The notes under the pieces are model-generated. The model was not told the origin of the DNA. It made no database searches and saw only the letters and a program-made list of their open reading frames with translations. A stretch of DNA of 64,000 nt from Hemileia vastatrix (taxonomy: Eukaryota > Basidiomycota > Pucciniomycetes > Pucciniales > Zaghouaniaceae), in NCBI GenBank assembly GCA_030280995.1, contig JASXTE010000008.1:20046633-20110632 (forward strand). Reading direction: 5' to 3'. A program made the translations under genes and the position numbers. This document shows positions 22,851-60,605 of this stretch, piece after piece; positions within the stretch are counted from its first letter, which is position 1, and every line of letters begins with the position of its first letter.

Positions 22851-22914
22851 TTTAAGAATTTAGAGAAAAAACACCTGAAAAGGGACATAGTAGTGCAAAG
22901 AATGAGAACTATGG

Positions 22915-38865: not shown

Positions 38866-38925
38866 CCGTAGTTCTCATTCTTTGCACTACTACGTCCTTT
38901 TTCAGGTGTTTTCTAAATTCTTAAA

Positions 38926-40097
38926 ATGGCACCTGTTCAACGCACTCCTCCTACAGGCGCTACTACTAGAGCTCGCGCTAGAGGCAGGCCAACAGCCACA
39001 TGGCCTGTGTCCCGCACTCACTCCCTGGAACCTCTCAACCTTAGGGAACGGCAACATTCAGTCCAATCTGTAGAAGACATCCCACAGGATTTCGATGATT
39101 CTAGTGATGATGAAGAAGGAGAGGATACAATGCACGAGGCACCATCTGCCCCTGCTACACACCCTTCTGGTCAACCTTTGGAACCTGGACCATCTAATTC
39201 ACTGGAAGATTTCATGAGGCTTTTCATGAAGACCCTTTCAAATCCAATGTCTTTGAAGGGATCAAAATTCAAAACTCCTTCCATGAAATCTCCTGATAAA
39301 TTCGATGGAGAACATCCAGACAGATTGCAACCTTTCTTGCAAATATGCAAACTTCTGTTCCATAATGACCCTCGAGCCTTTAATAATGACCGATCAAAGG
39401 TTGTTTACGCGTCTTTATTCCTAGCCGGAAAGGCAGCAAGGTGGTTCGAACCTTATCTTCTCATTCTCTCTTCGACAGAGACCCACTTACTCATCAATAA
39501 TTGGGAAAAATTCAAAGACCAACTTTTTACGTTGTTTGGTGACCCTAATGAAACTGACAACGCGGAAATTGAACTGGACTTCCTTCGCATGAGTGATAAT
39601 GGAAAAGCTTCTGAATACATCTCAAATTTCAGAGCGCTTCAAACTCAAGTAGGTTGGAATGATGCTTCCCTCAAGTATCATTTCACAAAGGGACTTCCTT
39701 TGAGGATCCTGGATCAATTAAATCTTCATGGTCAGAAGATGACTACTTTAACTGATTTAATGGATTGAACCCTCGAGCTCGACGGCATTTACCAAGGACG
39801 TCTACAACATCATTGATACGCCAACAAATCTCAAGGCCTAAATTTTAAATCGGGACCTTCTTCACACCCACGGCCAACTCAATCCAAACCAAATAAGGGA
39901 AAGGACAAACCTCGACTGAAAAGCTCGACCCCAGGCGCTATCAGCAAAGTACTGGATCCTAAAGGGGAATTTAAAGAAGCTGAGAGAAGAGGCAAGCAGA
40001 TAATGGGTTATGTATGTATTGTGGGGGTAAGCACAAGCTGGAAGATTGTGTAAAGTTGAAGGAAAGAGAAGGTACTAGTTCGAAGTGAAAAAACTAG
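38926..40097 (+). pseudogene. Gypsy B gag
   Basis: It opens at 38926 (MAPVQRTPP) and is colinear with A. TGA at 39766-39768 replaces the Arg (CGA) seen in A, a second TGA lies near 39816, and a 1-base loss near 39990 shifts the frame just before the knuckle (CMYCGGKHKLEDC in the other frame). The slippery heptamer A AAA AAC (40088-40094) and the following TAG are retained. Confidence 0.85.
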
Positions 40098-43000
40098 TAG
40101 ATAGTTTATTTGTGTGCAAAGCAAACTATCTTATCTCTCCCAGTGCACAGAACCTCCATGTCTTAAGGACTGGAGTTGCCTTAAACCGCTTGAGATTCAT
40201 TCTTTTTAAGGAGGATATCCCCTTCAGTTGTCTTATAGACTCTGGAGCTTCAATTTCTTTTGTCAGTTTATCTTTTGCCGAGAAGTTACAACTGACATTT
40301 ACAGATATTGATTGAACTCCAATTTATTTGGTCGAATCAGAGGAACCCAAATATTGGGTAAGTAAGAAATTTTTATGGGTTTACAACTTTCCGAACTTTC
40401 CCTCCTTTGAGTGGGAATTATCAGTCTTGGATGCCCCAAGGATGGACGATACCATTCTTGGCCATGACTTTTTAACACATTGGAATCCTGAAATTGATTG
40501 GACACAGGGAATTGATCACCCCACGCACTAAGTATATTTCTGATTCTTCAATGCAGGTCAATAGGGAGTTAAACAACCCGCCTGACAATGTCCTGCTAGA
40601 GGAAAAATCTCTTCCAGATGACTTGCAAGCATCTGATCTTTCTCTAAATGAGCAATTGGCTAACCCTTCTATCTTGATGACTTCACTCGAAGAGGATTTA
40701 AATTGCCTCAAAGTAATCAAATTATGCTCTCTCAATTCTGGTCTTTCCTCGACAGATTCTCTCAAAGATGATGAGGAGGACCAAATCAACGTTGAAGCCA
40801 TTAAATCAACTCTACCAGAAATCTATCATAACTTCCTCGATGTTTTCTCAATCCGCAAGGCCGATAAGTTACCACCTCATCGACCCTACAGCCATCAAAT
40901 AGAGTTAATAGGTCCAGTACCTCCAGCAGGTCCTGTCTATTCTTTATCGAAGGACAAATCTCAAGTTCTTCAAGACTACATTGCAGAGAATGTAGCCAAA
41001 GGTTTCACCAGAGCCAGTAAATCTCCAACCGGCTCCCCTGTTCTTTTTGAAAAGAAAAAGGATAGTAGCCTTAGGTTGTGTGTTGAATATAGAAAGCTCA
41101 AAACAGTTACTAAGAAGAATGCATATCCTGTTCCTCCTATGTCATTACTTTTTACCCTTTTTAATGGTGCAAATTTCTTTTCTAAAATTGATCTTAGAGG
41201 CACTTACAATCTTATTTGAATTGCGGAAGGTCATGAACCACTGACTGAAATGCGCACTAGATTTGGTAGTTTTGAATATTTAGTTATGCCTTTTGGATTG
41301 TGTAATGCACCATCAACCTTTCAAACTTTTGTCAATGACATCTTTCAAGATGTTGTTGAACAATTTGTTGTCGTCTACTTAGACGATATTTTTATTTTCT
41401 CGATGACACTGGATGAACATATTCATCATGTTGGACAGGTTCTAAATAGACTTCGAGATCACGGTCTCTACGCCAAGCACAATAAATGCAAATTCCATCT
41501 TAAATCAATCAATTTTTTGGGTTTTACGTTATCCACTGATGGTTTAGTCATGGACAACAAAAAGGTCCAAAAAGTCCTGGAATGGCCTGAGCCCAAAACC
41601 ATTAAATCCCTACAAGGATTTTTGGGTTTTGCCAATTTCTATAGAAGATTTATTAAAGATTACTCTAAAACTATTTCCAATCTTACTTCTCTTCTTAGAA
41701 AAGATATTACTTTTGTTTTTACTTCTACAGCAAAAAAGGAATTCGGAGCATTGAAGACTGAGTTCACCACAGCTCCAATTCTTCTATACTTTTATCCTTC
41801 TGCTTCAACAATAGTCAAGACAGATGCGAGCAATAATGCTATCGCAGGGGTCATTTCTCAATTAAATCCCAAAACAAAATTGTTTCATCCTGTTGCTTTT
41901 GAGTCACGCAAACTCATTGCAGCAGAATTAAATTATGAAATTCATGACAAAGAGCTTTTAGCTATTATTCATTGTCTTAAAAAATGGCGCTCTTTTCTTC
42001 TCAGCGTAGATAGTCCATTTCAAATCCTGACTGACCATAATGCTTTGAAATACTTTATTTCTTCCAAAGTGTTAACCAGGCGTCAATCCAGGTGGGCTGA
42101 ATTTCTGTCTGAGTTTCCTTTTTCTATTTCCTATCTCCCAGGTAAGAACTGTATTGTCCCAGATATCTTGTCACGTTGGGACGACGTTTACCCACAGCGG
42201 GGGGACACATTTGCTGACAAGAACCCAGCAAATGTGAAATCAATTTTCAATGAATCAATGTTAACGACTCATCAACTTAATTCAATGACAATTCAATCTT
42301 TTCAAAATCCACTATCCAACATCCTTGAAGCTCAGTCGAAGGACAATTATTGTTTAGGGTTGAAAGACAAAATACTCTCGAAGCAAGGGGCCAAAAGATT
42401 TAGTATTGAATCAGGTCTATTAGTTTTCGAAGGTAGAGTAGTCATACCCGACAACAATGAAATAAAATTATGGATTTTCAATAGTCGACATGATTCTCCA
42501 TTAGCTGGTCATTTTGGGGTTGATAAAACCTACCAGTTAATAGCAAGGGATTTATTCTGGCCAGGAATGACCAGAGAAATCAAGGCCTATATAAAAGCTT
42601 GTTACGAATGTAATAGGAATAAGGCTCCCCGTCACTGGAAGCATGGGTTGCTTCAACCACTTCCTATTCCCTCTAAACCTTGGGAATCTTTATTGATGGA
42701 TTTTATTTCTCAACTTCCTCTTTCTAATAATTTTGATGCTATATTAGTAATAGTAGATAGATTTTCAAAAATGTCTATTTTTATTAAAACCACTACTACT
42801 GCTACAGCAGAAGATTTGTCAAAATTGTTTCTAGAACATGTATTTTCCAAAAATGGCTTACGTAATGATATTATTTCAGATAGAGGCTCGTTGTTTGTAT
42901 CCACATTCTGGACTCAACTGTGTCAACAACTCAATATCACGTGGAATCTCTCCACGGCCTATCATCCTGAAACCAATGGGCAAACAGAAAGGGTCAACCA

Positions 43001-43745
43001 AATCCTCGAACAATACCTTTGAATGTATGTCAGTTACCAACAAAACAATTGGACCACATGGTTACCATTGGCTGAATTTGCTTATAATAACTTGACTCAT
43101 TCTTCAACACGACAATCTCCTTTTGAAACTGTTTATGGAAGGCATCCTCAATTCAACTCAATCCATGTAGAAACTAATCATCCTGCGGAACATTATCTTC
43201 AAACAATATCACGACTCCAAGAAGAGCTTAAATCAAATTTGGAATTAGTGACTCGAAGGTACAAGGAACAGGCCGATAAACATTGACAATCTGCTCCTCT
43301 CTTTAAACCATGCGACAAAGTATGGCTCGACGCACAAAACATTCAAACAACTCAACCATCAAAGAAACTAGCCAAAAGGCTCTTGAGACCATTTGAAATC
43401 GACTCTGAAGTCTCTAAAACTGCATTTCGACTCAAGTTACCTCCTAAATGGCAGGCTATTCACCCTGTTTTTCACGTATCTTTCCTGGAACTGGCTCAAG
43501 AAACATACCTGGGCAGGAACCAACCTCCTCCAGAACCAGTCGAAATAGAAGACCATCTAGAGTGGGAAGTAAGTCTGATCCTTGATTCAAGAATGCACAA
43601 GGGGAAACTTCAATACCTCATGGAATGGGAAGGCTTCCTTGATGATTCATACAAAACATCCTGGGAACCAGCCATCAATGTTTCTAACCCCCCTGAACTT
43701 CTAAAATCTTTTCATCTTAAATATCCTTTAAAACCAAAACCTTAA
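40085..43745 (+). pseudogene. Gypsy B pol: protease, RT, RNase H, integrase, chromodomain
   Basis: Protease (CLIDSGASISFV) lies near 40220, reverse transcriptase ([35 protein letters not shown]) at 41090-41405, and RNase H (VKTDASNNAIAGVISQ) near 41820. Integrase follows with HFGVDKTYQL, CYECNRNK, LLMDFISQL, ISDRGSLF and NGQTERVNQ. The chromodomain (LEWEVSLILDSR, YLMEWEGFLDD) ends at 43745. Inactivating changes are TGA at 40315, 41219, 43022 and 43287, a frame change near 40500 and another near 43370. The 590-codon RT-to-integrase stretch 41250-43022 is open. Confidence 0.92.
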
Positions 43746-44557
43746 AACTCTCCTTTTTTCCTTCTTCTCTTTTTTTTTCTTTTCTTTCTCTTTTCCTTCT
43801 TCTCTTTAAAATCTAAAACATCTTACCTCTAAAATTTCCTTATTCTTTGTTTTGTTTTCTTCTTTCTTCTTTTCTTTCAAAAGTTTTTCAACCTTCTTTA
43901 AAATAAATTAAATTAAAAAAAAATTAAAATAAAATAAAATTAAATTAAATTAAAATTAAAATTAAAAAATAAAACAAATAGAAAATTTAATAAATCCTTT
44001 TTAAATTTTCTTTTCTTTTCTTTTCAATTTTCTATATACATTCTTTCCTTAAAAAAAAAAATCTTCTCTTCGAACTACCAAAATCTTTCTCGAACTTCAC
44101 TTCAACCTCTAAATCTCTCTTTTTTTTTTAAAAAAAAAAAAACTCTTCGAACAAATTACTTCTTTCTTTCAAATTTTTTTTAAATTATTTCTTCTCTCTC
44201 TTTCTTTTCAAGTAACCAAAAAACTTCAATAAATAAAATTTCACAAATAAAAAAATTTTTTTTTTCTCATTAAATTTTCATTTCAAAATTGTTTCAATCA
44301 ACTATATTTTTTTCTTTTCTTCTTCTTATTTATTTTATTTTTTTTTTCTTTTCAAAAACTTAAAACTAAAATTGTTTCTTGATTAAATATACTTTCCTTT
44401 CAAAATTTCAAAACAAAAAATTAAATATTCTTTCTTTTTCTTTTTTCTCAAAATCTTATAAAATAAATATTAAAACTTTAATTAAAACAACAAAATAAAT
44501 AAATATACAAATTGTTTCTACTTTTCTTTTCCTCTTTCTTTCTTTTCTCTGTCCATT
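43746..44557. repeat. Pyrimidine-rich low-complexity spacer of Gypsy B
   Basis: T/C-rich runs and (TTAAA)n blocks lie between the converging pol and antisense genes. It is the mirror of 17251-18032 in copy A. It holds no gene. Confidence 0.7.
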
Positions 44558-45315
44558 TTAAATTTTCTCCTTTATTTTCTCTCGAACAAATCTATTCTTT
44601 TTTTCCAAAACCACTCTAATTTCCTTCCGGCATTTCTCAAAAACCTCCTCCTCTCCTACCTGTACCACTTCCCCAATTTCCAGTAATTCTTTGGCCACGT
44701 CGAAGGAGGCAGCATCAACAATTTTATTGACTTCACCGCTTAACTCTTTGAGGAATCTAGTTTGTTGACCTTGTCGAGGTTTCTTTGACCATACCTGGTC
44801 GAGAGTCTCTTTGTTGTCCTCCCTTGAATCAACCACTGGTTGACTTGCCTCAACTGGCAGCAATGACGCAGATTCCACAATCGGAACTTCCGCAATGAAA
44901 TCTTGTTAGGATTTGGTTTGAGAGGTGGAGAGGAGGAGTGCTATGGGGGCTATGCATTGTAAAGAGGCGGAAGAGTGGATATTGCATAAGGGGGTTATAT
45001 GGGGGCAAGCGCTGTGAAGCGCTCCTCATCGGACAACTTATTTAGTAATCCAATTACTCTCTTGTCTCACTGCTTAGTTAGCATATCAGTCCCGTTTAAG
45101 GCTAGCATCAGTGCTAGTGGTAGTCCGCCTTTTTAGGTCTTAACACATCTGAATTCTTAAACAAGATCATCAGTAACAAAATTTCTAAAATAACAGAAAA
45201 ATGGAATTACTTCAAATATTGGGTCAGCTTCTAAGAATAATTTCGGGGTGACTTCCACCGCCACTTCTTTCTCCTCTTCGTCATCCTCGATGACCACCCG
45301 TCCCTTCTTCGGCGT
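44558..45315 (-). pseudogene. Antisense zinc-cluster gene of Gypsy B, 3' part
   Basis: On minus this begins at the Gypsy C duplication (ACGC) within TPKKG. It runs through EEEKEVAVEVTPKLF to an intron (donor GTAATT at 45210, acceptor TTTAAG near 45156). Exon 2 is then cut by a 242-bp TG...CA insertion, and ends in a helical region (EVNKIVDAASFDVAKELLEIGEVV) at 44558. The last 100 codons are open. Confidence 0.7.
44904..45145. mobile_element. Probable solo LTR of 242 bp
   Basis: Sequence absent from copy A starts TGTTAGGATTTGG and ends GTCTTAACA. Flanks are AATCT (44899-44903) and CATCT (45146-45150); copy A has CATCT at the empty site, so this is a 5-bp duplication with one later change. TG...CA ends and a 5-bp duplication fit a solo LTR. 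No related full element is in the window. Confidence 0.5.
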
Positions 45316-46455
45316 TGTGGTAGCCTAAAGTTTAGTATGGCACCTAAGTACGTAAATGGAGTTACTACGGCGTGCAAGATTGGCGTTATTATTTTTTATA
45401 AAAGGGTTTTATTTAATTTATTGGAGTTTAAAATATGAAGAAATTGGTCACGAGCAAATGCCTACACAAAAACAATTTCTTTTACGGAGAAAACTTATTT
45501 TTACGGTCTGAAAAATTTATAAGTATCAAGTCAAGTCACTCAAGAACATTGGGAAATTTTCCCAGAATTTTTACTATTTTTCTTATATTTTTAAATGAAT
45601 TTTAAAGTTTTATAGAAATATTTACATTTTCAGAAATTACTTAACTTTGATGAATTTTCACGGGGTAATTAGAGCTGCGCAGACTACGAAAATTAGTTTG
45701 GTATGTAAAGGGGAAGTAGCTCTATTATGTGTAATTTTTCTAGATTTTTTATTATAGTTTTAAGGTTCTAATTGAGTCCGGAAGTCTGGACGGACTACGT
45801 ACGGACTCCGTTTCGACTCCGTACGGACCATACTTTAACTCCGTACGGACTCCGTACGGGTTCCGGATTGACTCTGGGAGAGCTCTGGAGGGGAAAACTT
45901 AGGCACGTGACTAGGAATACTTAAGCGCCTCTCAAACTCGAAATTGAGAGGGGGGACGCAACATACAGCTTAATCTTTAACCACCACAGTCTCATTTTTT
46001 ATTACTCAACAAATTAAATAAGTTATAATACCCTTATAACATTTATTATTTTTACATAACATTTTAGAAATACAATTCAACAATTTAAATCACACTTCAT
46101 ATAGGGTATCTTTAGAAAGGTCTTCATCACTGGGACTTGATTATTGCTGTCTCATAAAAATTCAAATTATTATAAAAACATAAAAGTCAATCTTTTCAGA
46201 TCTTTCACTGGTACACCTTATTGTTGTTATCAGTATTTCTTTCTCAACAGCCACTTTCTTTAAATCTCAATAAGCGTTAATTATATTAGAGTTTCATTAT
46301 TTTTATCAATCAGATCCAAGTAGACTGGTTAGCTTAGTGATTTAGAATTCCCATTTTGTTATTTATATTGGAAGGACGGGGTTTTCAGCTAAATCCACAT
46401 ATCTCCTCCGGATTCTGCTTACAGCAAGGCAACTGTAAGAGTTTACCTTACCATA
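45316..46455 (+). repeat. Gypsy C 5' LTR
   Basis: It begins TGTGGTAGCC and ends CTTACCATA. TTATAAAAGGG about 80 nt inside is a possible TATA box. A CG-rich patch at 45776-45865 with repeated CCG and CGG triplets stands out from the AT-rich rest. Confidence 0.92.
45819..45859. promoter_or_regulatory. Cluster of CCG-N2-CGG sites in the Gypsy C LTR
   Basis: CCGTACGG occurs three times (45819-45826, 45841-45848, 45852-45859), with CGG-ACT-CCG pairs between. Two of the three sites are intact in the 3' LTR (57234-57241, 57267-57274); the other has CTG for CCG. Zn2Cys6 regulators bind paired CGG triplets, and this element encodes such a domain. Binding is inference. Confidence 0.45.
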
Positions 46456-46457
46456 GT

Positions 46458-46474
46458 TGGCGCCCAACGTGGGG
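46458..46474 (+). other. Gypsy C primer-binding site for tRNA-Lys
   Basis: TGGCGCCCAACGTGGGG begins two bases after the LTR. It equals the first 17 bases of the well-known site complementary to the 3' end of tRNA-Lys(1,2). Confidence 0.8.
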
Positions 46475-46630
46475 TCGATTTCTCTAGCTTTCTTTAAAGA
46501 CTTACTTGGATCAAGAACGTTATTAGCCTGAAAGAGGCTTATTTTCTGGAACTCTAATTGGATTTTTGTTATTGGCCTTCAAGAGGCTTGTTATTTTATT
46601 GATTGTTAACACTTTTCATTACTTATTGGG

Positions 46631-49219
46631 ATGTCTTCTTCTGCTGTTGCTTCTGGATCTCCTCAAACTCTTACTCCCTCTGTTAGGATTGTTTCTTGGG
46701 ATGACCCAAAGTTTGATGGGGAGGAGGTTAAATGGTTCATTAGCAGGTATGAAGCTGCTGCTGCTGTTGATGGTGCTTCTCATGTGGATATGGTGAAGCA
46801 AGTTAGATTTTTTATTGCCGATAGGGAGGTGGAAAAAGAGGTTATTGCTATGCAGGCATTTAAGGACAAGGATTGGGTTAAGCTTTCTAAAGCTATGGTT
46901 GATAGATGGGTTGTTAGGTTTACTATGATGGACCTCAATAAAATTGTTGGAGACTGGCAAGCAAAAGGTGGAGTTTCTTCTATGGCAGACTTCAAAAAGC
47001 TGTGTGTTCAGTTTGATGAAGTGGTGGAATATCTCATATTGGTAGACGAGTTAGTGCATGAGAACCAGGCAAAAGATTTGTTTTGGACAGCATGCAGCAG
47101 GGATATTCGTATGGACGTCTTGAAGGATCTTTCAAGAAAAGATTTGATGAAGGAACTGCCTAATGGTGAGCAGAAACTGCCGGCTCTGGAGGTTATCAAG
47201 GACAACATTCAAGCCCATCTAAAGTTATTGGCGTTGGACAAATATCAAGAGTCATGCACTCAATATGTTAGCAAGGTTAGCGAAGTTTTGGCCAAAAACA
47301 ACGATATTATGGTCAAAGCCCAGGAGGCCAAGAAGGCTCAAATGGGATTACCTGCTGCTAAAGTTGAGGGCAATGTAGATAATAAGATGGTCGATCACTT
47401 GGCCGATTTAACTAAACAGTTAAAAATATTTGTTCAAGAAACCCAGAAGGCCAATAAGGCCCCAATCACTTCTTCGTCGATGTCGACTTCTTATCAGTCC
47501 AGAGGTTATGAACGTCGAAATTATAATGGCAATAACAACGGTAACCGCTTCCCAGGCAATGGGAGAAATGGTGGGAATGGTGGTAATGGATATAGAGGTG
47601 GCTATGATGAGCCAAAGGTGTGCTCCTATTGTAATAGGAGGGGGCACAGAGCAACAGTTTGTTTTGCTCTAGATAAGGATATGGATGCTGGGCGAGTTTT
47701 ATTTGATGGTAAAGTTTTTAAATTTCCTGATGGTTCGTTCATCAAGCCCAGTGATGGACAGTCTCCTTCTGATTTGGTCAGAAGAAGTTTAACGGCTGAA
47801 AGGAGAGCCAGATTTGAAGAGGTGACGGATGAAGATGTTAATGCCAAGAGTGGCAAAAATGGTAATGGTAATGGTGGTAAAGCTGACAAGGGCAAGGAGA
47901 AAGAGGTCAGTAAAGCCACATTTTCTACTTCTTTTGGTGGTTTAGAGCTGGCGACTGTTGCCCAGGTGGAGGGTAGCTGTATGGCTGGCGAATATGATGT
48001 TAATGCTGCTAGAAGAGCAGCTGCTACTAAGGCAAAAAGTAGCATTCAAAGCCAATTAAGGGCTAATCCTGGCAAGGCCAATAACAAAGTGAACCCTTAC
48101 TCTAAGGACAAGAATTCTAGTGCTCAAACTGCCGCCAACAAATTGAACCCTTACTCTAAGGACGAATTATATAAGATGCAGAAGGGGATTGATGATATGG
48201 GGCCCCCTAGTTATGGCAAGTTTGATTTAAATGGTGAGCCTATGCCAGAGGATGATTCGGATTCTGAGGAGGACGTACCGTTGGCGTCTCTACCCAGACC
48301 AAGTTTTAGAGGTCCCATCCCAATGGAGGGAGTAAGAAGGACTAGCGATGGATCAGGATTAGTGCAAGAAGCTGGTGACGGAGTTAGGGTTATAGAAAGT
48401 GAAGATGGCTCGGTTGGACCTCAAGAGGTACCCAGGGCCAAGGTTGTTAAATCAAAGGTCCAGTATGAGCGGCCAGTAGTTTCTGGTCAAGCTAATGCGA
48501 TGGACGCAGTTTTGAATAGGGTGAATCAACTGCAGATTCCCTTATCTTTTGGGGAGTTATTTACGATTAGTCCGGCGCTTGCTGAAAAGAAAAAGAAGCA
48601 TTTGACGAGGCGTCGGGTTTCCACTGGAGAGGTGGAATATATTTGTGAAAATGCTGAAAAGTTTGGGGAAGATGTAGATACGCATTTTTCCGCTCCCCTG
48701 GGTTACCTGGTGGTAACTCTTAACGGTAAAGAAGTAAAGGCCTTGGTCGATTCAGGGTCTCAAATTAATTTAATTTCATTGGAGCAAGCGACGAGTATAG
48801 GCTTGCAAATTAAAAGTGGAACTGGGGGAAACCTCAGAGGTATTGGAGGGCATGCAACAGAGCTGATGGGTACAGCTGAGCATGTCAGGTTAGGCATTGG
48901 TGGATCTGTTGGTAAGGTTCACTTTTATGTGGCCAGAGGAGCAGTCAAAACTGTTCTTGGTGGTCCTTTTTTGATGGATTTTGATGCCAGGATAGGGTAT
49001 CAAGCTGGAATGGGGATTAGTTTGGAGATCACTGGTGAAGATATGCAGAGGTTACATATGCGGTTAGCGCCTCCTGGAGATGAAGGTTGGGAAACATGGC
49101 CAGGGATTACTACTCTGTGCCAGTGTTGTGTATGCACCAAGAAGCGGCATATAAAACGGACGGCTTCTGGTGAATTATGTTTGTTGGAAAGGGATGGATG
49201 CCCTTATTTTTTGGGGTAG
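46631..49219 (+). CDS. Gypsy C Gag-protease polyprotein
   Basis: An intact 862-codon frame. The N-terminal capsid-like part opens with MSSSAVASG, then WDDPKFDGEEVKWF and a helical region. A Gly/Asn/Arg-rich stretch leads to a CCHC knuckle (CSYCNRRGHRATVC) around residues 330-345. An acidic linker follows, then a retropepsin-like protease with VKALVDSGSQINLISLEQA near residue 705. Gag packages the element's RNA and the protease matures the proteins. It ends at TAG 49217-49219, four bases after a slippery heptamer, and overlaps pol by 43 nt. The protease lying with Gag and not with Pol is a lineage trait. Confidence 0.9.
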   Translation: MSSSAVASGSPQTLTPSVRIVSWDDPKFDGEEVKWFISRYEAAAAVDGASHVDMVKQVRFFIADREVEKEVIAMQAFKDKDWVKLSKAMVDRWVVRFTMMDLNKIVGDWQAKGGVSSMADFKKLCVQFDEVVEYLILVDELVHENQAKDLFWTACSRDIRMDVLKDLSRKDLMKELPNGEQKLPALEVIKDNIQAHLKLLALDKYQESCTQYVSKVSEVLAKNNDIMVKAQEAKKAQMGLPAAKVEGNVDNKMVDHLADLTKQLKIFVQETQKANKAPITSSSMSTSYQSRGYERRNYNGNNNGNRFPGNGRNGGNGGNGYRGGYDEPKVCSYCNRRGHRATVCFALDKDMDAGRVLFDGKVFKFPDGSFIKPSDGQSPSDLVRRSLTAERRARFEEVTDEDVNAKSGKNGNGNGGKADKGKEKEVSKATFSTSFGGLELATVAQVEGSCMAGEYDVNAARRAAATKAKSSIQSQLRANPGKANNKVNPYSKDKNSSAQTAANKLNPYSKDELYKMQKGIDDMGPPSYGKFDLNGEPMPEDDSDSEEDVPLASLPRPSFRGPIPMEGVRRTSDGSGLVQEAGDGVRVIESEDGSVGPQEVPRAKVVKSKVQYERPVVSGQANAMDAVLNRVNQLQIPLSFGELFTISPALAEKKKKHLTRRRVSTGEVEYICENAEKFGEDVDTHFSAPLGYLVVTLNGKEVKALVDSGSQINLISLEQATSIGLQIKSGTGGNLRGIGGHATELMGTAEHVRLGIGGSVGKVHFYVARGAVKTVLGGPFLMDFDARIGYQAGMGISLEITGEDMQRLHMRLAPPGDEGWETWPGITTLCQCCVCTKKRHIKRTASGELCLLERDGCPYFLG
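49207..49213 (+). other. Gypsy C -1 frameshift heptamer
   Basis: T TTT TTG in the gag frame precedes GGG TAG. Slipping back by one base yields FFGVAGDD, the start of the pol frame that stays open for over 500 codons. No clear downstream pseudoknot was worked out. Confidence 0.6.
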
Positions 49220-49475
49220 CGGGGGATGATCACTCTAATGTTGTAATCTCTCCTCAGGATGAGATCCCGGATTGCAATAGGTCAGCTCACTTGGAGATAA
49301 TTCAAGTGGATTCTCAATTATTTTCTGTTAATATTACTTTGGAGTGCAAATACGTTATGGACTTTTCTATATGTTTATTGGATTTACCCTGTTTTTCTAT
49401 TAAATTTAAAAATGGTGAAAAAGGCAAAATGGGCCAAATTAGGTTGGATAAAAATTGGAAGGGTATGTTTTTGGA

Positions 49476-49645
49476 CCTCCAGCAAGAGGTTAAACTGCAA
49501 TTATCTCCTTCTATTTTGGACCTCCAGCAAGAGGGTAAACTGCAATTATCTCATCAAAACCCAATAAAAAATCTCGGTATAATTAAAAAACAAAAAAATA
49601 ATTTTTGTGAAAATTCAATTCCGGTCCTCCAGCAAGAGGTTAAAC
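49476..49645 (+). repeat. Stem-loop/TTAAACTG repeats inside pol
   Basis: Three copies of CCTC-cagcaa-GAGG followed by (T/G)TAAACTG at 49476, 49521 and 49626 encode the peptide LQQEVKL or LQQEGKL. Two more are at 51627 (CCTC-ccccat-GAGG) and 51684 (CCTA-caccaa-GAGG). They belong to the same family as the non-coding array 53340-55340. Confidence 0.8.
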
Positions 49646-52600
49646 TGCCAACTTTCTTTACGGGTGATTTACTGTTGGATAAGGGAAGCAAAGGTGTTGG
49701 AAAATCTGTTTATAAATTAGACGAGGGAAAGGAGAAAAGGGTAAAATTTAAAAATGAAATAAAATATTTTTCTAATTTTTCTTATTCCGATTCTGGCGAT
49801 GAAGAAGATTCATTTGATGAAATTTTTAATGGCGATACAAAAGTAAAAGTTTTACCTCAAGTTTTTTTAGATGTGGACGCAGCCAAATATAAGAAAGTAG
49901 CAAATAAAGTTCGACCTATTAATGAACCGCTACCTGCTGAATTAAATCCACCTTTGAGAAGACCAAGGTTATCAAGAGATCCTTATGAAAGTCCCTTGGT
50001 AAAGAATACGCCTGAATTTTCTGAGACGTCAAGAATCACTTTTGAGAGACTGGGTGTTGTTAATTTTGGACCTGATGGTTGGTTGTCTGGAGAAGAGATG
50101 AAGTTGTTGTTGGATGTGATGGTCAAGCGAGAGAAGGCCATTGCTTTTGTAGAAGAGGAGAGGGGTGTGTTGAAGCATTCCTATGGGGAGCCTTACAAGA
50201 TTCCTGTGGTATGTCATGAACTGTGGCAGCAGAAACCAATTCCTATTCCGGCTGCATTGAAAGAAGCTTATATCGAAGTTGTCAGAGAACGGATACACAC
50301 TGGACTGTATGAGCAATCAACGTCAAGCTATTCTAGTCCGGTATTTTGTATCAAGAAGCCAAATGGCAATCTTAGAGTTGTTCATGATCTTAGGGAATTA
50401 AATAGGGTTACAATAAAGGATGCTGGGATACCACCTAGTGCTGAGGAGTTTGTTGAAGCGTTTGCAGGGAGAGTGTGTTACGGTTTGGGAGATATTATGG
50501 GTGGATATGATGAGAGAGAGTTACATCCGGACTCAAGACCTCTCACTACATTCGATACGCCACTTGGACGTTTACAGTTAACAAGATTACCTCAAGGAGC
50601 AACAAATTCGGTTGCAGTTTATCAAGCTCAGATGGCTTGGATCCTTCAAGACAAAATTCCACAATATGCTGGAATCTTTATAGATGATGGAGGAATTAAG
50701 GGACCAACAACCGACTATGATAACCAGGTGTTGGAAGAGAATCCCGGGATATGCAAATTCATTTGGGAGTTTGCAGTTACATTAGAAAGAATCTTGTTTT
50801 GAATTGAAGAGGCTGGGTTAACTATTTCAGGCTCAAAATTTTCCTGTTGTGTGCCAGCCTTAGAAATATTAGGCCATGTGGTATGTAGAGAGGGTAGGAT
50901 TATGTCCAAGAAGAAAGTTAACAAAATTCAGTCCTGGCCAAGACCCAAGAATACGACCGAAGTTAGAGGGTTTTTAGGCGTTTGCGTATATGTTAGAATG
51001 TTTATTAAGGACTTTTCTTCATTTGCAGCTCCATTGAGAAAGTTAATGAGAAAGGATGCAGACTGGGAGTGGGATGAAGAGTGTGAGAAGGCGTTTGTGA
51101 AGTTGAAGGAGGTTGTGGGGAAGGATTTAGTCCTGCACAAGTTGGATTATGGAAAAGATGCTGGCAGAATTTATTTAGCAGTTGATTCAAGTCAGGTTGC
51201 AGCTGGGGCGGTTTTGTCTCAGATGGATAAAGCTGGTTACATCAGGCCAGTTAGGTATGAATCTGTAGTATTTACTGAGGTCGAATCAAGATATTCTCAA
51301 CCGAAATTGGAATTATGTGGTGTGGCGAAAATACTGAAGAAACTTCAGCATATTTTGTGGGGGCAACATTTTGAGTTGCAAGTGGATGCGAAATTGTTAA
51401 TCCAGATGATTAATTCCCCAAGTTTACCGAACGCACCCATGACGAGATGGGTAGCTTTTATTCAACATTTTTCATTTGATTTAGTTCATAAGCCTGGCAA
51501 AACTTTTACTATGCCAGATGGTTTATCAAGAAGAACACCCACTGAAGAAGATTCAGACTCAGAAGAGTTCGATGAAGATATACCTATTATCAAAGCCAGC
51601 ACTAAAGGAGCTGAAGACTTTCCATACCTCCCCCATGAGGTTAAACTGGCAGGACTATTGTGTTTAGATTATGGTAATGATGACCTACACCAAGAGGTTA
51701 AACTGGAAAATAGTTTTTATGTTAATAAAGGTGTTGGAAAAGGTGTAGATAAATTCGGCAGAGAGGAGGTAGAAGAAGATGTGGTGTATGTAGAGGAAGA
51801 TGGATTGGTAGTGTGGGATAGTAGTAAATTAAGGAATGGTGTATATGTTGGAGAATTAGAGAATTTAAATAAAAGGGTGGATAAAGAGAAAGAGGTATTT
51901 TCAAATACGGTTTACGAAGGATCCAAAGGTTCAGAAGAAAAACAACAACATAGCTCGATTAAAGATTTATTTAGGGGTCAAAAATTATTGGCTCATTCAT
52001 GTGCAGGTGATATTGGTGATAGAGAAGTCCCTATTGATGTTATATTAATCGATTTTCAAGATGAAGTCTGGGGTCAGACTGGTTTTTATTTTTTGTTAGT
52101 CAAATATTTGTTGACTTTAGAAAGGCCAGAAGATTGTGAAGACGATGAATGGGTGGCTATCAAGAGGAAGTAATCTACGTTTTATTTATCTGGTAGACGT
52201 TTAATGAGGAGAAGGTATCCAAATCCTCAAGTAGTTATAACTCAAGAGAAGGGGCAAGAATTAGTTTTGAAATCACTGCATGAAGATCTAGGGCATAGAG
52301 GCGTTGGAGAAACGTTTAGAAGAATTTCTGATAGATTTTGGTGGCCTGGCATGAAGATGGCTGTTAAACAGTGGGTTCAGTCATGCGAAGAATGTCAAAG
52401 ACGAAGTTATTTAAGGCCAAAAGAACCTGGACGCGTGACCGGTGAATATACACTCTTTGGAAGAGTTAGTTTAGATGCCGTTCATATAAAAGAGGGACGG
52501 TATAAATATTTAATTGTTGCCAGAGATGATTTATCTGGTTGGGTAGAGGCAGCGCCTCTTATTAATTTAACTGCCAAAAAAGTGGCAGAATTTTTTTTGA

Positions 52601-53339
52601 ATAATTGGGTGTATCGATATGGAGTGATGAAATTGGTGACAGTAGATGGAGGTCCTGAATTTGGGACAGAGTTTAAAGAGGCCGTATTGAAAGTTGGATC
52701 AAAGGTTAGGGTAGCAACCCCATATTATCCTGAAGCTGAAGGCATGGTTGAAAGAGGGCATCAAGTTATTAAGGATGCTTTAGTTAAAATGTGTGGGACA
52801 AGTGCCAAAAAGTGGAGGCACTATTTACCTTTAGTTTTATTTGCTGATCGAATCACTGCCAAAAGGACGACCGGATTTTCACCTTATGAACTTGTTTTTG
52901 GACAGAAAGCAGTTTTACCGGTTGATTTAGAAGCTGAATCATATCTTGGAGTTGACTGGGACACGGTCAAAACTACTGAAGAATTATTGTGTGCAAGAAT
53001 GATGCAGCTAGAAAAGAAAGAAGAATATTTAGAAAAGGCATATTTGCGGATGATGAAGATCCGAAATCAATAAGTCAGATATTGGGATGAGCGGTTGGCA
53101 CATCGATTAAGGAAACCTTTGAACCCAGGTGATATGGTCCTGGTGTATAATAGGAGTTTGGAAAGTCAGTGGGGCAAGATGTTTGCAGATAGGTGGAATG
53201 GACCGTATAAAGTTAAGGAGCAAGTTTCCGGCGGTTCATATGTGTTAGAAGAGTTGGATGGAGTAGTATTGAAGAAGAGGGTAGCGGCCGATCAAGTGAA
53301 ACGGTTCTATCCTAGAGGCACCAGGAGTGCCAAAGTCTT

Positions 53340-55340
53340 CCTCCGCAACGAGGATAAACTATGATATTGACAAAATTTTATTGATTCCTCCGCAATGAGG
53401 ATAAACTATGATGTTTATAAAAATCTTATCGACCTCCGCAACGAGGATAAACTATCTTCTTTTTATCAAAATACTTTACTATTGTTACACTGCATATGGG
53501 CAACGAAACTGTGATGAAAATTAACGAAATTCAAGAAGACCTTCTTTGAAATTTTCAAAAACTTAAAATTCTTAAAATATGGGTGAAGATAGTGTTGGAA
53601 AATTTTAAAATTTATTGGAAGAAGTGTTCACAGGGGAACCTTCTTAATTTAATATTGGCAAGTGTGGGGGTAATTGATGTGCTGGCTGCTCTATACACAA
53701 TTACCCCATAATGTTCGTTTCCAAAATTTTCCCTGTTTCTAGTTGAATCCTGGCTTTGTCTTTTAATTATAGGAAGTCCACTAAGACTATAAACTGGAAC
53801 GAATCAAGATACACCGCCCTCAACGCCGGATTCAAGATTCTTTTATTTTATTTTGTTTTTGATTTTTTTTATGTTAGCCTGTGATTTCTTTTCTTTAATA
53901 TATATTATGAATTATTGTAAAGGTGATGCTCACTGGTGGTCTCTAATCATTTTTATAAATTGGAGGGAGCCCACCCAGTGATCATCATTATAAATTTATC
54001 TTCTAAAAACTTTCATTTATTTTCTTTTCTTTTCAATTTCTCAAAATTGTGTAACCACATCAAGTTGCACTTGGATGTGGGTATGATGTCGAGGGTACGG
54101 CTCATCAAATGGCCGGGGGGCATCTTTTAAAAAATTTATTTTGAAATTTTTTTATTATTATTACTTTTTTTATCTTTCTTTAAAAATTAAAATTTAACTT
54201 TTATTTCAAAACTATCTTTTCTAAAATCATTTATTTTAAAATAAAAAAAAAAAATTAAAATTAAAATTAAAAATAAATAAAATAAAATAAATAAAATAAA
54301 AATAAAAATAAAAATAAATAAATAAATAAAAAATAAAAATAAAATAAAATAAAATAAAATAATAAAATAAAAAAATTAATTAATTAAATCAAAATTATTA
54401 TTATATTTCTTAGTATTATTTTTCAGTCTTCATTCTTTTTAGTTTAATTTATTTAGTTTAGACAGGAAACAGAGTCTAGGGAAACTCAATACCTATGGGA
54501 TTTTACTTCAAGATATCTGTTAGTCCTCCAAGACTTTAAACTGGCTACTGTTCAAGACGTTCTTTAAGGTTTTTTTATACGTATTTTGGATCTGTTAGTC
54601 CTCCAAGACTTTAAACTGGCTACTGTTCAAGATGTTCTTTAAGGTTTTTTTATACATATGTTGGAGCTGTTAGTCCTCCAAGACTTTAAACTGGCTAATT
54701 TTCAAGACTGTCATTAAAAATTTTATATTGGAGCTGTTAGTCCTTCAAGAATTTAAACTGAATTTCAAGGGTGTTTAAGACTTTATGGATATTTTCAGAG
54801 ACGGATTTTTTTTATATAAATCAAATGTTAGGTCCACCAAGACCTTAAACTGGAGTGTTATCATATGTTAGGTCCACCAAGACCTTAAACTGGACTATTA
54901 TCAAGCTGTTGGGTCCACCATGACTTTAAACTGGATTTCTTATCGATCAAATGTTTGGTCCACCATGACTTTAAACTTGTAGTTCATTCATTGTTTAGTC
55001 CACTATGACTTTAAACTGGAAAATTAATATCTGCAGGATAATTCAACATTCATTGGTCCACTATGGCCTTATACTGGATTACTTGTCGATCAAATATTTG
55101 GTCCACTATGACATTGAACTGGATTATCAAATTTATTCAATCTTTGGTCAAGCCTAGGCCTTACTTAGGAATTTATCAAGTTATTTATGCACCTAAATGA
55201 TCTTTGGTCCACCAAGACCATAAACTGGCAATCAATTATATGTTTGGTCTACCAAGACTTTAAATTGGAATTTCAATCTTGTTTGGATAACTCAATTCAA
55301 TCTTTTAATTTATCACTGTCCACTAAGACTCTAAACTGGT
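53340..55340 (+). repeat. Non-coding array of small stem-loops followed by TTAAACTGG
   Basis: About 19 units, irregularly spaced, each with a 4-bp stem, a 6-nt loop and a conserved A/TTAAACT tail. Stems differ but usually still pair: CCTC/GAGG (53340, 53387, 53433), AGTC/GACT (53775, 54522, 54595, 54668, about 54993) and GGTC/GACC (about 54830, 54870, 55206), with G-U variants elsewhere. An A/T-only tract (54230-54400) divides the array. The function is unknown. Confidence 0.85.
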
Positions 55341-55925
55341 TATTCAATTATTTCTGGAATTGGGTGCTGATAAGCTTTAGGAGGTTAAACTTTTAGGTGG
55401 TGATGATGCTAATGAAAGCATAATGGTTAATTAGGTGAAATTTGTGGCGCTTTAACATGGTCTAAAGTTAAAATTATTATTGGAAGCCTGGCAAAAGTAT
55501 TTTATGGGTTTGCTGTATAGCAAAGTTTGAACATTGTGATGAAGGAATCAGAAGTTAGGATGGTAGTTGGATTTTAGGGAATGATTTTTTTTAGTGCCTC
55601 AGTGTTAGGTCATTTTTGGTGTGAAGCTTGGAGGACCTTATGGCGAGATTGGAATCATAGAATTCGGCTCAGTGGGGGGCCCTATGAGGTTGGAATCAAG
55701 AGTATTCGGCTCATAGGAAGATCCACTCTCTCAATGCTGTGACAAGAAGGAAGACTGGTATATGGGAGTCTGAAGGGATTCAAACCTTGCTCTCAGTAGT
55801 GGAATCATCACAAGATTTATATTATTTTATTTTATTTTATATCAAGCCAGAGAAGAAAGAAAACATCATTTATGTTGAAAGTTTAAGAAGACCAAGCAAA
55901 AACAAAATTTTATCAAGTTATACTG

Positions 55926-56618
55926 TTAGAAAAGATAATTTCTTTGAAATTGTTCAACATCATTATCAAAGCTTTGCATTAAAATTCTTCTTTTCATGAG
56001 GTCTTCATGGTTATTAGCTGGAGTTTCTTGAAAATAGGCCAGCATTTTTCGTTTCAACTCATTAGTAAAGTCAAGAAAAAGATAGCGATGAAAATTTGGA
56101 TAATGATTGATATAGTCCGTCTTCACTCTACCAACATCATCAGTGTTGGTTATTTCGACAGCTAGAAGCTCAAATATGTTATTAAGTCATAGGTTTAGTC
56201 AAATTTTGATTAAAAGTTTTTTTTAGTAAGATAATAGGGTCTTACATTTAGAGCCAGGAAACATAGTCTCAGCAAAGTTGGTTGGGGGCACTGGCGTTAT
56301 AGGATTAGGATCTTGTGAAGGCAAAATAAGGCCGGGATCCGCTGATGAAGATTGAACTTTTGAAGCTGCTTTTGATCTTATTCGTTTTAAGAAGACAGGA
56401 GTTTTTGATCGCTTTTTAGAAGTTGAGGGATCAGGGAGAGCTGCTGGTCCTAAATATACGTTTGTTTTAGAAGGAACTAATGGCCGGTTACATTTGACTT
56501 TTTTCACACAGCATAAGTCGCAAGCTGTCCTACCAGGAAGATTAGGGTTGGACATTAAACAAGGTACCTGGTATCGAGCGCAGAGTTCACATGGAGCGAC
56601 AAGTTCTTTGGAAGACAT
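55926..56618 (-). CDS. Antisense Zn2Cys6 zinc-cluster gene of Gypsy C, intact
   Basis: Two exons on minus, 56618-56246 and 56161-55926, join through a GTAAGA...TTCTAG intron into 202 residues without a stop. Residues 10-43 form C-X2-C-X6-C-X12-C-X2-C-X6-C (CELCARYQVPC ... CDLCCVKKVKC), with basic residues near the last Cys as in Gal4-type DNA-binding domains. A Lys/Arg-rich linker (STSKKRSKTPVFLKRIRSK) could be a nuclear signal. A Pro-rich stretch and a C-terminal helical segment (YLFLDFTNELKRKMLAYF) follow. It lies between pol and the 3' LTR and faces pol. I infer a DNA-binding regulator of the element or host; it could also be a captured host gene. Confidence 0.75.
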
Positions 56619-56741
56619 ATTGATGAAGATGAATTTTATAGTTGATTAAAGAAGATGGTGGTTGAAGGTTAAAGATGAATATTGTGTTTGACCACTTATG
56701 CAAAGTTTTGAGAATGGGGACATTCTCGATTGGAGGGAGGA

Positions 56742-57870
56742 TGTGGTAGCCTAAAGTTTAGTATGGCACCTAAGTACGTAAATGGAGTTACTACGGCGTG
56801 CAAGATTGGCGTTATTATTTTTTATAAAAGGGTTTTATTTAATTTATTGGAGTTTAAAATATGAAGAAATCGGTCACGAGCGAATGCCTACACAAAAACA
56901 ATTTATTTTACGGAGAAAACTTATTTTTACGGTCTGAAAAATTTATAAGTATCAAGTCAAGTCACTCAAGAACCTTGGGAAATTTTCCCAGAATTTTTAC
57001 TATTTTTCTTATATTTTTAAATGAATTTTAAAGTTTTATAGAAATATTTACATTTTCAGAAATTACTTAACTTTGATGAATTTTCACGGGGTAATTAGAG
57101 CTGCGCAGACTACGAAAATTAGTTTGGTATGTAAAGGGGAAGTAGCTCTATTATGTGTAATTTTTCTAGATTTTTTATTATAGTTTTAAGGTTCTAATTG
57201 AGTCCGGAAGTCTGGACGGACTCCATTTCGACTCCGTACGGACCATACTTTAACTCTGTACGGACTCCGTACGGGTTCCGGATTGACTCTGGGAGAGCTC
57301 TGGAGGGGAAAACTTAGGCACGTGACTAGGAATACTTAAGCGCCTCTCAAACTCGAAATTGAGAGGGGGGACGCAACATACAGCTTAATCTTTAACCACC
57401 ACAGTCTCATTTTTTATTACTCAACAAATTAAATAAGTTATAATACCCTTATAACATTTATTATTTTTACATAACATTTTAGAAATAAAATTCAACAATT
57501 TAAATCACACTTCATATAGGGTATCTTTAGAAAGGTCTTCATCACTGGGACTTGATTATTGCTGTCTCATAAAAATTCAAATTATTATAAAAACATAAAA
57601 GTCAATCTTTTCAGATCTTTCACTGGTACACCTTATTGTTGTTATCAGTATTTCTTTCTCAACAGCCACTTTCTTTAAATCTCAATAAGCGTTAATTATA
57701 TTAGAGTTTCATTATTTTTATCAATCAGATCCAAGTAGACTGGTTAGCTTAGTGATTTAGAATTCCCATTTTGTTATTTATATTGGAAGGACGGGGTTTT
57801 CAGCTAAATCCACATATCTCCTCCGGATTCTGCTTACAGCAAGGCGACTGTAAGAGTTTACCTTACCATA
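56742..57870 (+). repeat. Gypsy C 3' LTR
   Basis: Nearly identical to the 5' LTR. The 11-nt loss falls in the CG-rich patch, removing part of a CGTACGG repeat. Confidence 0.92.
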
Positions 57871-57874
57871 GCGT

Positions 57875-58321
57875 CCGTCTTGAGATGGGGACTTCATCCT
57901 CATCCTCTTCAACTAATTCATCTACCTCTTCTTTGACCCCTCATTTCTTACTTGTGGCCTGGGTTACCCAGGTTGCTATGTTATCTTCAATTTCCTCCTC
58001 ATTCTCTCCCACCGACTGATCATCCCCAATTGATACGTCCCAAATATCCTCGACTACCTCTTTGGTTTTTGGTATTACCCAATATTTGGTTTTCGTAAAT
58101 CGATGCTCAATTTCCGCATTTTTATACAAGGCATCACACACCACTTGTCTCCAGCAGCAAAACTCGCATTTCTGGCAAGGACCTCGTGTCGCCGTGCTTT
58201 CAACGCAGAAGTATTCCATTGTTTCGCAGGCCGTGCAGGCTTGGGAATACTGCCGGGTAATGATTCCACTGTCCGCTTTAGGGTGTGGAGGCGTGGGAGT
58301 TGGGGTAGGACAATTCAACAT
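57875..58321 (-). pseudogene. Antisense zinc-cluster gene of Gypsy B, 5' part
   Basis: From ATG at 58321 the minus strand encodes a Pro-rich start and then the complete cluster QACTACETMEYFC, VESTATRGPCQK, CEFCCWRQVVC. This gives C-X2-C-X6-C-X12-C-X2-C-X6-C, the same spacing as in Gypsy C. A segment ending VIPKTKEVVEDIWD follows, then an acidic run. TGA after ATSKK (about 57940) breaks the frame (Leu in A). Gypsy C is inserted at 57870/57875; the gene continues at 45315. A TATA box lies 80 nt upstream. Confidence 0.75.
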
Positions 58322-58419: not shown

Positions 58420-58920
58420 TGTCACGCATCACGTGACACTCGAGGCAAAAGCAGCTCATTAAATCAATAATACAGAGGTCTAAATCCATACTCAAAGCAC
58501 AGAAAGAAATTCTACATAGCAACTGCAACTTTCCTTTGTGTACTCACTATTCAACCGTGCTAGTCTAAACTCTAAATCTAAATTAGTCAATCTCTCAATA
58601 GTGTGTCTTAGTCTTTTTCTCAATAAGTGACGCACAGCGCAACAGTTAATGTAATAGTATGCTAAAAGGTTTATTAAGTATTGGTGAATTATTAAGAAGG
58701 GGTCGTGAGCATGGACGGAATGGTTAGTGGAGGATTAAGGGGTTAATGGATGTTAGTGAGGAGGGTCCAGGTGTAACGGGTGTATTTTCTAATGGTCTGT
58801 GGTGTGCAGAATAGTATATGGGTATGAGGTCAATGCGAGGAGGAGTAAAGGATATAAAAAGGGTTGGGTTTTGGTTTGACTTTCTTTAGAATTAAATTAT
58901 AAAACATATTTACAGTTAAT
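58420..58920 (+). repeat. Gypsy B 3' LTR, left part
   Basis: It matches 38046-38545 of the 5' LTR and breaks after CAGTTAAT, where the Harbinger-like element begins. The rest of the LTR is not in the window. Confidence 0.88.
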
Positions 58921-59290
58921 AGGGGGTGTCAGTTCTGGCAAATCCGCACTTAAATTAAGTGCGGATTTCAAACCAAATCAGCACTTAAATTTTGCAAAAA
59001 AGTCACTTATTTCAAAAAAGGGTGTCAGTTATGACCTCAAATCAGCACTTTTTTCCTGTTTTTTTTCACAACCACATTTTGGCCACAAAACATCCCTTCC
59101 TTTCTTACCCCATCCCTGTCACATGTGACACACTGACCTTCCTCGCTACCTACTCATCAATCCTCGGCACACACCCCTTCCTAACATTTTCATCATTTTA
59201 TTACAACATTTTGACCAGGCATGTTTACATTCTTTTTTACATATTTCTTCTACCTCTTAATCTTTTTTCTTGTTATGTGCCAGTTTCATA

Positions 59291-60605
59291 ATGCCTCCCA
59301 GACATTCCAAATCTCAAAAGGTAACTCAAAAATCTGCTTCGTCACAAAAGTCTCCTCGTAAAGCAAGCCCTACACCTGAAAAATCAAAGGCAGGTTCAGG
59401 TCAGCTTAAAAAGGATGATTATCTCATCATAATCAACTTCCTTAAAATAAAATCAAATTTTGAAGCATGTTTTGGATGTGAAAAGTCCACTCGTATTGGA
59501 CGTCCACCTTCTTCAAAGGTTAATGGCTACTTGTTGATGGCCAATGAAGTAAGGAAGAAAACAAGGGGGAGAATCGATATCAATCCTAAACAAATGAAGG
59601 AGAGATTTAAGAGTTACCATTCAAAATATAAAAAGACTCATCATGCTGTAAATGAAACTGGCTTTGGTATTGACGATGATGATTTGGAGATTGGAATTAC
59701 TACTGTTTCCGAAAAGCTCAATGTCATGTGTCCTTTCTATGAGGAAATGGATAATCTTTTTGGCACCCGAGTTGATGTAAACCCTTGGTTTCTACACGAT
59801 ACTACTAAGCATATACCCTCTGGATCCAAACCTTCCTATAATCCTCCCAACACACCTTTACTTGAAGAAGATCAATCCCCTCCACCTTCTAACCATAGTT
59901 CAGCTGAAGATGATCCCAACTATCAAGCAGAACAATTATATCGCAGAAGATCTGAATCCTCAGAGGCCCAAAATTTAAATGTATGTTTACTTTTTGTTTT
60001 TTCTTCAATTCTTCTCTGAATTTCTCTTTCTTTCTAGTCTCCTCCTACTCAAACTCAATCTCCATTAAATAATCTCAATTCTGGAAATGTGAATACCTCT
60101 TTAGAAGCTGCTTTAGAAGAACTTCCTGAAGCCTCTTGTTCAAACTCCAAACTAAAGCGTCGAGCCTCAACTTCAATGAACTTGAAGCATCTATTAAAAC
60201 GTGGTAATACTTCAACAAGCTCATTTGGCTCCCTTGAGGATTATTTTGAAAAAAAAGATATAAGTAAGTTTTGTTTACTATATATCTTAATCATTAACTC
60301 ATTTATTTATTTATTTCAATTTAATTTTCTCAGCGAAATCAACTATTGCAAATAATGCCCTTGACTTTGAGAAGATGAAGTTTGATCATATGCTAAGGAA
60401 AGATCAGCAAGCCTTAGATCTGGAAGAAAAAAAATTTGAGGTAGAGCAGATGGAAAGAGTAAATGACCATCAATTTCAAAGAGAAATGGCTACTTGTGAA
60501 TTGGAAAAACAAGAGAGTTTTAAAAAAAAAGATTTCATTATGGAATGTGTTAAAAATGGCCAATCTTATGAGGACATTAAAAAATTACTTGACCTTTTCA
60601 ATTGA
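59291..60605 (+). CDS. Myb/SANT-like DNA-binding protein of Harbinger element 2
   Basis: Harbinger elements typically encode a transposase plus a Myb/SANT-type protein that helps it bind DNA. Exons 59291-59980, 60038-60263 and 60334-60605 join through short GT..AG introns into 395 residues with no defect. After a Lys/Ser/Pro-rich start there is a helical domain at about residues 45-150 (LKKDDYLIIINFL, YLLMANEVRKK, QMKERFKSYHSKYKK, PFYEEMDNLFG). A Ser/Pro linker follows, then a charged coiled-coil C-terminus (LDLEEKKFEVEQMERVNDHQFQ). A start at 59270 is also open; I prefer MPPRHSK for its charged beginning. The exact domain family needs a profile search. Confidence 0.75.

Follow-up and report, generated by a model that had tools for sequence, protein, structure and literature searches.

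Why would a Gypsy retrotransposon carry, antisense to gag-pol and between pol and its 3′ LTR, a two-exon gene for a small protein with a fungal-type zinc cluster, and on what would such a protein act? We took up this question in a 64-kb window of the Hemileia vastatrix genome (64,000 nucleotides of contig JASXTE010000008.1, to which all positions refer unless a locus is named), which is part of the 747.6 Mb in 791 contigs that we searched for further copies. A preliminary description of the window had placed an antisense frame at the same position in three Gypsy elements (A, B and C) of two lineages, and we find the same arrangement, with the frame intact in C and broken in A and B. A and B together form one lineage and C the other; a chromodomain is encoded by A and B, and none was matched in the scanned pieces of C.

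Antisense genes downstream of pol

Element C occupies positions 45316–57871 and has GCGT on both sides. Its 5′ LTR (45316–46456, plus strand, with the GCGT flank on its left) and 3′ LTR (56742–57871, plus strand, directly preceded by a purine-rich tract) match at 98.3% and differ at 8 of 1130 aligned bases. The gag-pol region spans 46619–53070 on the plus strand, and the pieces scanned (up to 53361) matched Pfam protease, RT, RNase H and integrase, with no match to a chromodomain. Downstream of pol lies a stretch of repeats (54374–55345), of which 54515–54739 belongs to repeat family D10 and the rest was delimited by eye. The antisense gene follows on the minus strand, in two exons with conserved splice sites: exon 1 (56246–56618, ATG at 56618) encodes the zinc cluster (residues 10–43) and a lysine-rich linker, an intron of 84 nt (56162–56245) runs from GTAAGA to TTCTAG, and exon 2 (55926–56161) encodes the C-terminal part. 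The gene does not overlap gag-pol, and the interval singled out in the preliminary description ends at 56741, the last base 5′ of the 3′ LTR. The reading frame encodes 202 amino acids plus a stop and is intact, despite three stops in the pol frame (50800, 52171 and 53071, the open frame ending at 53073); gene model and stops both agree with what had been described. In place and strand, antisense to gag-pol within the pol–3′ LTR interval, the C gene corresponds to an aORF-3R.

The cysteines of the C protein are spaced C-X2-C-X6-C-X12-C-X2-C-X6-C. The preliminary description had noted this exact spacing in B as well, and a six-frame scan of the window for the double-Cys motif returned precisely these two places. 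In first-order simulations of the region, 0.04% of 20,000 runs preserved an open stretch of 124 codons in a given frame, and the double-Cys motif arose on one strand of the simulated DNA in none of 20,000.

The antisense gene of A lies on the plus strand, with exon 1 at 16291–16770, closed by a TGA at 16771, and a distal part at 16845–17225 that comprises the intron and a later exon piece in a different frame from exon 1. The cysteine that A had been said to lack is the fourth of the motif. In B, on the minus strand, the exon 1 part (57944–58321) keeps all six cysteines at the C spacing and runs into a stop after residue 126; the insertion point of C lies inside this gene, between the GCGT repeats, and has severed the distal part (44543–45315) from exon 1. 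In both A and B a TATAAAA-like motif precedes the antisense ATG and lies immediately outside the LTR; that of A is a TATAAAA at 16204, 87 bp upstream of the ATG. The LTR pair of A differs at 41 of 805 aligned bases and that of B at 22 of 506, the latter over part of the LTR. The distal part of the B gene also contains an insertion of about 247 bp (44899–45145) that is missing in A and is perhaps a small mobile element. Outside the Gypsy elements, a further repeat is present at 8512–8878 and 58891–59270 (94–95% identical), the second copy adjoining an open frame (59261–60019) with MPPRHSKSQK near its start.

The zinc cluster and a second antisense gene

Proteins of the Zn2Cys6 type are fungal transcription factors, with a canonical spacing of C-X2-C-X6-C-X5-12-C-X2-C-X6-8-C, in which the first of the two CxxCx6C halves carries the basic residues used for recognition. 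The C and B proteins, with X12, have the canonical spacing, and A is short of one cysteine. The order of the halves is the other way round: in C the first half reads CELCARYQVPC and the second CDLCRVKKVKC, so that the basic half comes second. The start of the profile PF00172, the basic half, aligns with residues 31–45 of the C protein, and the best PDB match by sequence, PPR1 (E = 0.0076), also aligns to the second half.

The preliminary description had identified the spacing as that of the fungal Zn2Cys6 cluster and proposed a search with PF00172, and the outcome was divided. Three of the five C copies scanned scored above the gathering cut-off of 21 bits (L021, 25.8; L027, 25.1; L028, 25.8), a fourth (L019, 17.5) and the copy in the window (15.9) fell below it, and A and B gave no match. 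The residue after the fifth cysteine is another Cys in the window's copy and Arg in 17 of 19 sampled neighbours. A structure model of C exon 1 has helices at residues 10–16 and 29–38, one at each CxxC, at low confidence (pLDDT 50.8). A search of a protein collection in which fungi may be few found no homologue at E up to 10 for C (21 candidates) or A (50 candidates), and viral contigs gave none at E up to 1e-3. Seven of the eight canonical Zn2Cys6 loci fetched from the assembly (L001–L005, L007, L008) are on small contigs of 22–60 kb, which are possibly contaminants from another fungus.

Some copies of C carry a second, related antisense zinc-cluster gene, which we call D. It was found in 9 of 29 other C copies (L011–L040), a count that may be low since the sequence of some other loci perhaps stops short of its position. 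The window's C copy is without it. Gene D (L011, 3264–3609; L081, 1–760; L083–L091) lies pol-ward of the tandem repeats and in some copies replaces the part equivalent to 54374–54866. Its exon 1 encodes C-X2-C-X6-C-X14-C-X2-C-X6-C, where X14 lies outside the canonical range, and its second half, CLSCYEKKRKC, is again the basic one; PF00172 aligns there (residues 37–51) at 9.4 bits, below the cut-off. Exon 1 is open in eight of the nine fetched copies, and the last motif cysteine is gone in one of the nine; exon 2 was located in seven, open in six and broken in one.

All four proteins can be aligned over their cysteines. When C was aligned with B, only 5 of 2000 shuffles did as well, with no similarity between their C-terminal parts outside the cluster. 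Comparing D with C, 17 of 2000 shuffles were as good for the clusters, 73 when exon 1 was taken as a whole, and 3 for exon 2, in which the two genes also resemble each other; the D cluster did no better against B than 242 of 2000 shuffles. Taken together, these alignments suggest that A, B, C and D are likely one family of reversed-half zinc clusters with a common origin.

Selection on the antisense frame

The comparison of A with B is the cleanest test of selection, because both sequences come directly from the window. In exon 1 of the antisense gene, substitutions at codon positions 1, 2 and 3 numbered 13, 13 and 35 (third-position p = 1e-4), and dN/dS over 148 codons was 0.18, versus 1.61 and 1.11 in the other frames. 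The later piece (16904–17225) gave 0.19, versus 1.9 and 0.6, its coding frame containing three stops in A and none in B. The preliminary description had proposed measuring dN/dS on the antisense frame apart from gag-pol, and on this measure the frame is distinct from its alternatives (0.6–1.9). Elsewhere in the same pair of elements, dN/dS was 0.16 in gag and 0.35 and 0.51 in two pol pieces; the antisense frame is thus under roughly the same constraint as gag. Synonymous divergence between A (18036–22859) and B (38917–43742) is uneven, with dS of 0.31 in gag versus 0.12–0.16 in the pol pieces and a high value in antisense exon 1 (30.5 of 89.5 sites), a hint of recombination between element lineages.

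Copies of C were collected in two ways. A genome search with the C protein yielded 13,814 first-look candidate places, of which 150 were scored, and a second search, with non-coding sequence adjoining the gene, yielded 1,827, of which 40 were scored. From the 39 non-window places listed through the non-coding neighbour we fetched 20, a route by which copies without both stretches would escape. The gene region was present in all 20 fetched of the 39 listed, which corresponds to the presence in most family copies expected of an aORF-3R; 19 were complete, and the partial one (L064) was dropped from the frame counts. Other Gypsy copies, which the preliminary description had proposed to collect, thus do retain the frame: it is open in 12 of the 19 full neighbours and broken in 7. 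Four of the seven (L062, L074, L075, L077) share a CGA to TGA change at codon 15, a recurrence in line with CpG decay (CpG observed/expected in the window is 0.41). All six cysteines are kept in 18 of the 19; the donor GT is missing from one open copy, and a second open copy lacks one cysteine.

The window's copy and these 19 form 20 rows reached independently of protein similarity. Over all their variants pN/pS is 1.08, and the C gene evidently decays freely after insertion, the variation of the recent burst being mostly neutral. Private and shared variants behave differently. Private nonsynonymous and synonymous changes numbered 69 and 18 (1.11 per site), versus 8 and 11 for shared non-CpG changes (0.21; Fisher p = 0.003); with CpG changes kept, the shared counts were 20 and 14 (p = 0.037 versus private). 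A pooled set of 42 C rows, partly ranked by protein, gave 82/32 versus 11/13 (p = 0.017). A 1.57-kb pol piece from 21 rows showed a similar contrast, with private changes of 116/59 (0.53 per site) versus shared changes of 19/21 (0.24; p = 0.031), and at least one stop in 8 of its 20 non-window rows; the pol rows and the D copies come from the protein-ranked set, ranked by C and not by pol or D. The neighbour-picked copies give an overall value of 1.08; we place weight on the shared/private contrast and on A versus B.

The private/shared contrast indicates that selection acted on the source copies of C, and together with A versus B the variation points to purifying selection on the antisense gene in both lineages. 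Conservation is also gag-pol-like in the sense used for an aORF-3R (A/B, 0.18–0.19; shared C changes, 0.21 versus 0.24 in pol). Whether substitutions in the frame are neutral across copies, which the preliminary description had named as evidence against the gene, has two answers: over all variants they look neutral (1.08), and among shared C changes they are constrained (0.21 per site). For gene D, pN/pS over all variants in nine copies, ranked by the C protein, was 0.32 and 0.25 in the two exons, with no contrast between shared and private variants (p = 1.0 and 0.49; 9 copies).

Two other lines of evidence were set aside. Diversity of 0.020/0.005/0.032 at the three codon positions of exon 1 had looked like strong constraint, and we rejected it as the copies were chosen by protein similarity. 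Seven loci (L011–L017), the best matches of the protein search, in which the exons are contiguous, six matching protein residues 1–202 and one 4–202, were considered as splice products and likewise rejected: they have in common an 82–84-bp deletion, in frame, that spares the donor but takes away the acceptor together with the first part of exon 2, joining the start of the intron to exon 2 so that both exons read as one frame, with a stop elsewhere in two of the seven. The deletion is one event in a subfamily, and no proof of splicing.

A candidate target in the LTR and possible functions

The 5′ LTR of C contains an array of 11-bp repeats with ACTCCGTACGG-type units (the CCGTACGG array, 45774–45890), in which everted CCG-N2-CGG sites (CCGNNCGG) lie at 45819, 45841 and 45852. 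Two more are in the 3′ LTR, at 57234 and 57267, where they precede the antisense ATG by 616 and 649 bp, and all five such octamers in the 64-kb window fall inside the two C LTRs. None of 2000 simulated LTR-like random sequences reached three. In each of the 30 loci L011–L040 (L018 being the window's own), 1–8 octamers occur within 1.5 kb of the antisense ATG in the direction of the LTR, and none of the 30 has one on the non-LTR side. The array measures 64–175 bp where both flanks were found (25 of the 30 loci and the window's 5′ LTR), and its CpG observed/expected ratio of 1.41 compares with 0.72 in the rest of the LTR. According to a passage of PMC5559640, the typical target of a Zn2Cys6 protein is two CGG triplets in inverted, direct or everted order, to which it binds as a homodimer. 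We regard the array as a candidate target of the antisense zinc-cluster protein. The A and B LTR stretches tested contain no CGG pairs, and the A and B proteins, if they act on the LTR, would therefore read something else.

The explanation that we consider best, at a probability of about 0.5, is that the C lineage encodes its own regulator of LTR transcription. We infer that the gene is expressed from an antisense transcript that begins within or close to the 3′ LTR, and that removal of the intron would give a small protein made up of a zinc cluster at the N terminus, predicted to bind zinc, followed by a linker rich in lysine and a short domain at the C terminus. This protein would bind as a dimer to the everted sites arrayed in the LTR and tune LTR transcription, either up, favouring spread of the element, or down, restraining copy number. 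The preliminary description had proposed a conserved accessory regulator; an accessory gene under selection with a zinc-cluster signature is what we find, and the regulatory part stays at the level of this proposal. Several results speak against self-regulation. The array is perhaps a plain 11-bp minisatellite that is CpG-rich only through its youth, and A and B carry the gene, yet their LTRs are without CGG pairs. The window's C copy and L019 score under the Pfam cut-off, the model of C exon 1 is poor (pLDDT 50.8), and over all variants pN/pS is 1.08 with 7 of 19 full neighbours broken. Gene D shows no shared/private contrast (p = 1.0, 0.49), has lost a motif cysteine in one of nine copies and exon 2 integrity in one of seven, and its cluster is matched against B by 242 of 2000 shuffles. 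A more elaborate version, which we hold tentatively and below even odds, is that C is a self-contained circuit in which one or two antisense zinc-cluster proteins act on the element's own LTR array, with array length (1–8 sites) and gain or loss of the second gene setting copy-specific dose and feedback; it would be a retroviral-style, HBZ-like arrangement built on a reversed-half fungal cluster that is common to two Gypsy lineages.

The protein could instead be a chaperone or a helper of integration or nuclear import that attaches to the element's DNA or RNA or to chromatin once reverse transcription has taken place and guides or shields the pre-integration complex, with no role in transcription. 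Its small size, the lysine-rich linker and the scanned C integrase pieces without a chromodomain match would suit such a helper, and passages of PMC7264820 raise the possibility that antisense additional ORFs act in the nucleus or in pre-integration transport. The CGG array fits promoter binding better, and A and B have a chromodomain as well as the gene, which is therefore no stand-in for a chromodomain; we regard the helper as unlikely. Less likely still is a regulator aimed mainly at host genes or silencing, whether it counters silencing or is a transcription factor captured from the host that changes host expression. Zn2Cys6-type proteins do regulate transcription in fungi, and with the gene in many places (13,814 first-look candidates, 150 scored) the dose could be high; against this, neither the 64-kb window outside the C LTRs nor the non-LTR side of the 30 loci contains a CCG-N2-CGG octamer.

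Codon-level constraint conflicts with both remaining readings. If the antisense RNA mattered, acting against genomic RNA or as a source of small RNAs, the frame would be incidental, as its neutral look across the full set of variants in the 20 C rows (pN/pS 1.08) would allow and as a passage of PMC7264820 mentions; the A/B dN/dS of 0.18–0.19 and the constrained shared C changes need a translated product, and we consider an RNA effect improbable. That the frame is a chance or fossil one with no function is very improbable: it is indeed broken in A, B and 7 of 19 full C neighbours, but the selection tests speak against this for the history of A and B and for the source copies of C, as do two related genes in one element and the same layout in two Gypsy lineages.

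For the favoured reading, self-regulation through the LTR, the question is directly testable, as one element holds a protein class with known DNA reading together with a candidate target array. If true, it would be a case of a retrotransposon using a transcription-factor domain typical of fungi, and would bear on what may keep a large burst of copies under control.

Comparison with known antisense genes

Antisense genes at this place are already known. Boty/BcGypsy1 reportedly has an additional antisense gene, by the title attributed to Zhao et al. 2011. Passages of PMC8365987 and PMC7264820 describe it as a fungal Gypsy element of Botrytis cinerea with the additional antisense gene brtn. Element C resembles it as a fungal Gypsy element with an additional antisense gene; those passages mention no zinc cluster. 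In plant Retand/Tat elements, antisense ORFs in the pol–3′ LTR interval encode a TRP28 domain, with further cases in Grande (gene23), RIRE2 and PvRetro13 (passages of PMC11963269 and PMC7264820). Nearly all young Retand elements surveyed carry the antisense ORF, whose product is predicted to bind DNA, and tandem repeats often lie in the same region (PMC11963269); the function of antisense accessory genes of LTR retrotransposons is called unknown in passages of both PMC7264820 and PMC11963269. As described there, the likeness to C extends to place, strand and repeats in the region. Unlike those of Retand/Tat, the genes reported here encode a fungal-type zinc cluster instead of TRP28 and contain an intron; some copies of the element hold a second related gene, the C LTR contains a candidate target array, and the genes occur in a chromodomain lineage too.

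Among fungal Zn2Cys6 factors (PF00172; the Gal4 and Ppr1 kind), the C protein is alike in its six-Cys spacing and in the three of five copies over the cut-off, and unlike in its basic half being second, its place antisense in a retrotransposon and its length of only 202 amino acids. The antisense gene of HTLV-1, HBZ, is read from the 3′ LTR and encodes a bZIP protein that acts on the LTR. Antisense genes of HTLV are also mentioned in passages of PMC7264820 and PMC11963269. HBZ would work alike, as an antisense protein on its own LTR, and we claim no relation in sequence. Among the matches listed in our literature search, no title or abstract start dealt with a zinc-cluster gene in a Gypsy element. 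Set beside Retand/Grande and Boty, what is new here is the zinc-cluster kind of antisense gene, with gene D and the CGG array.
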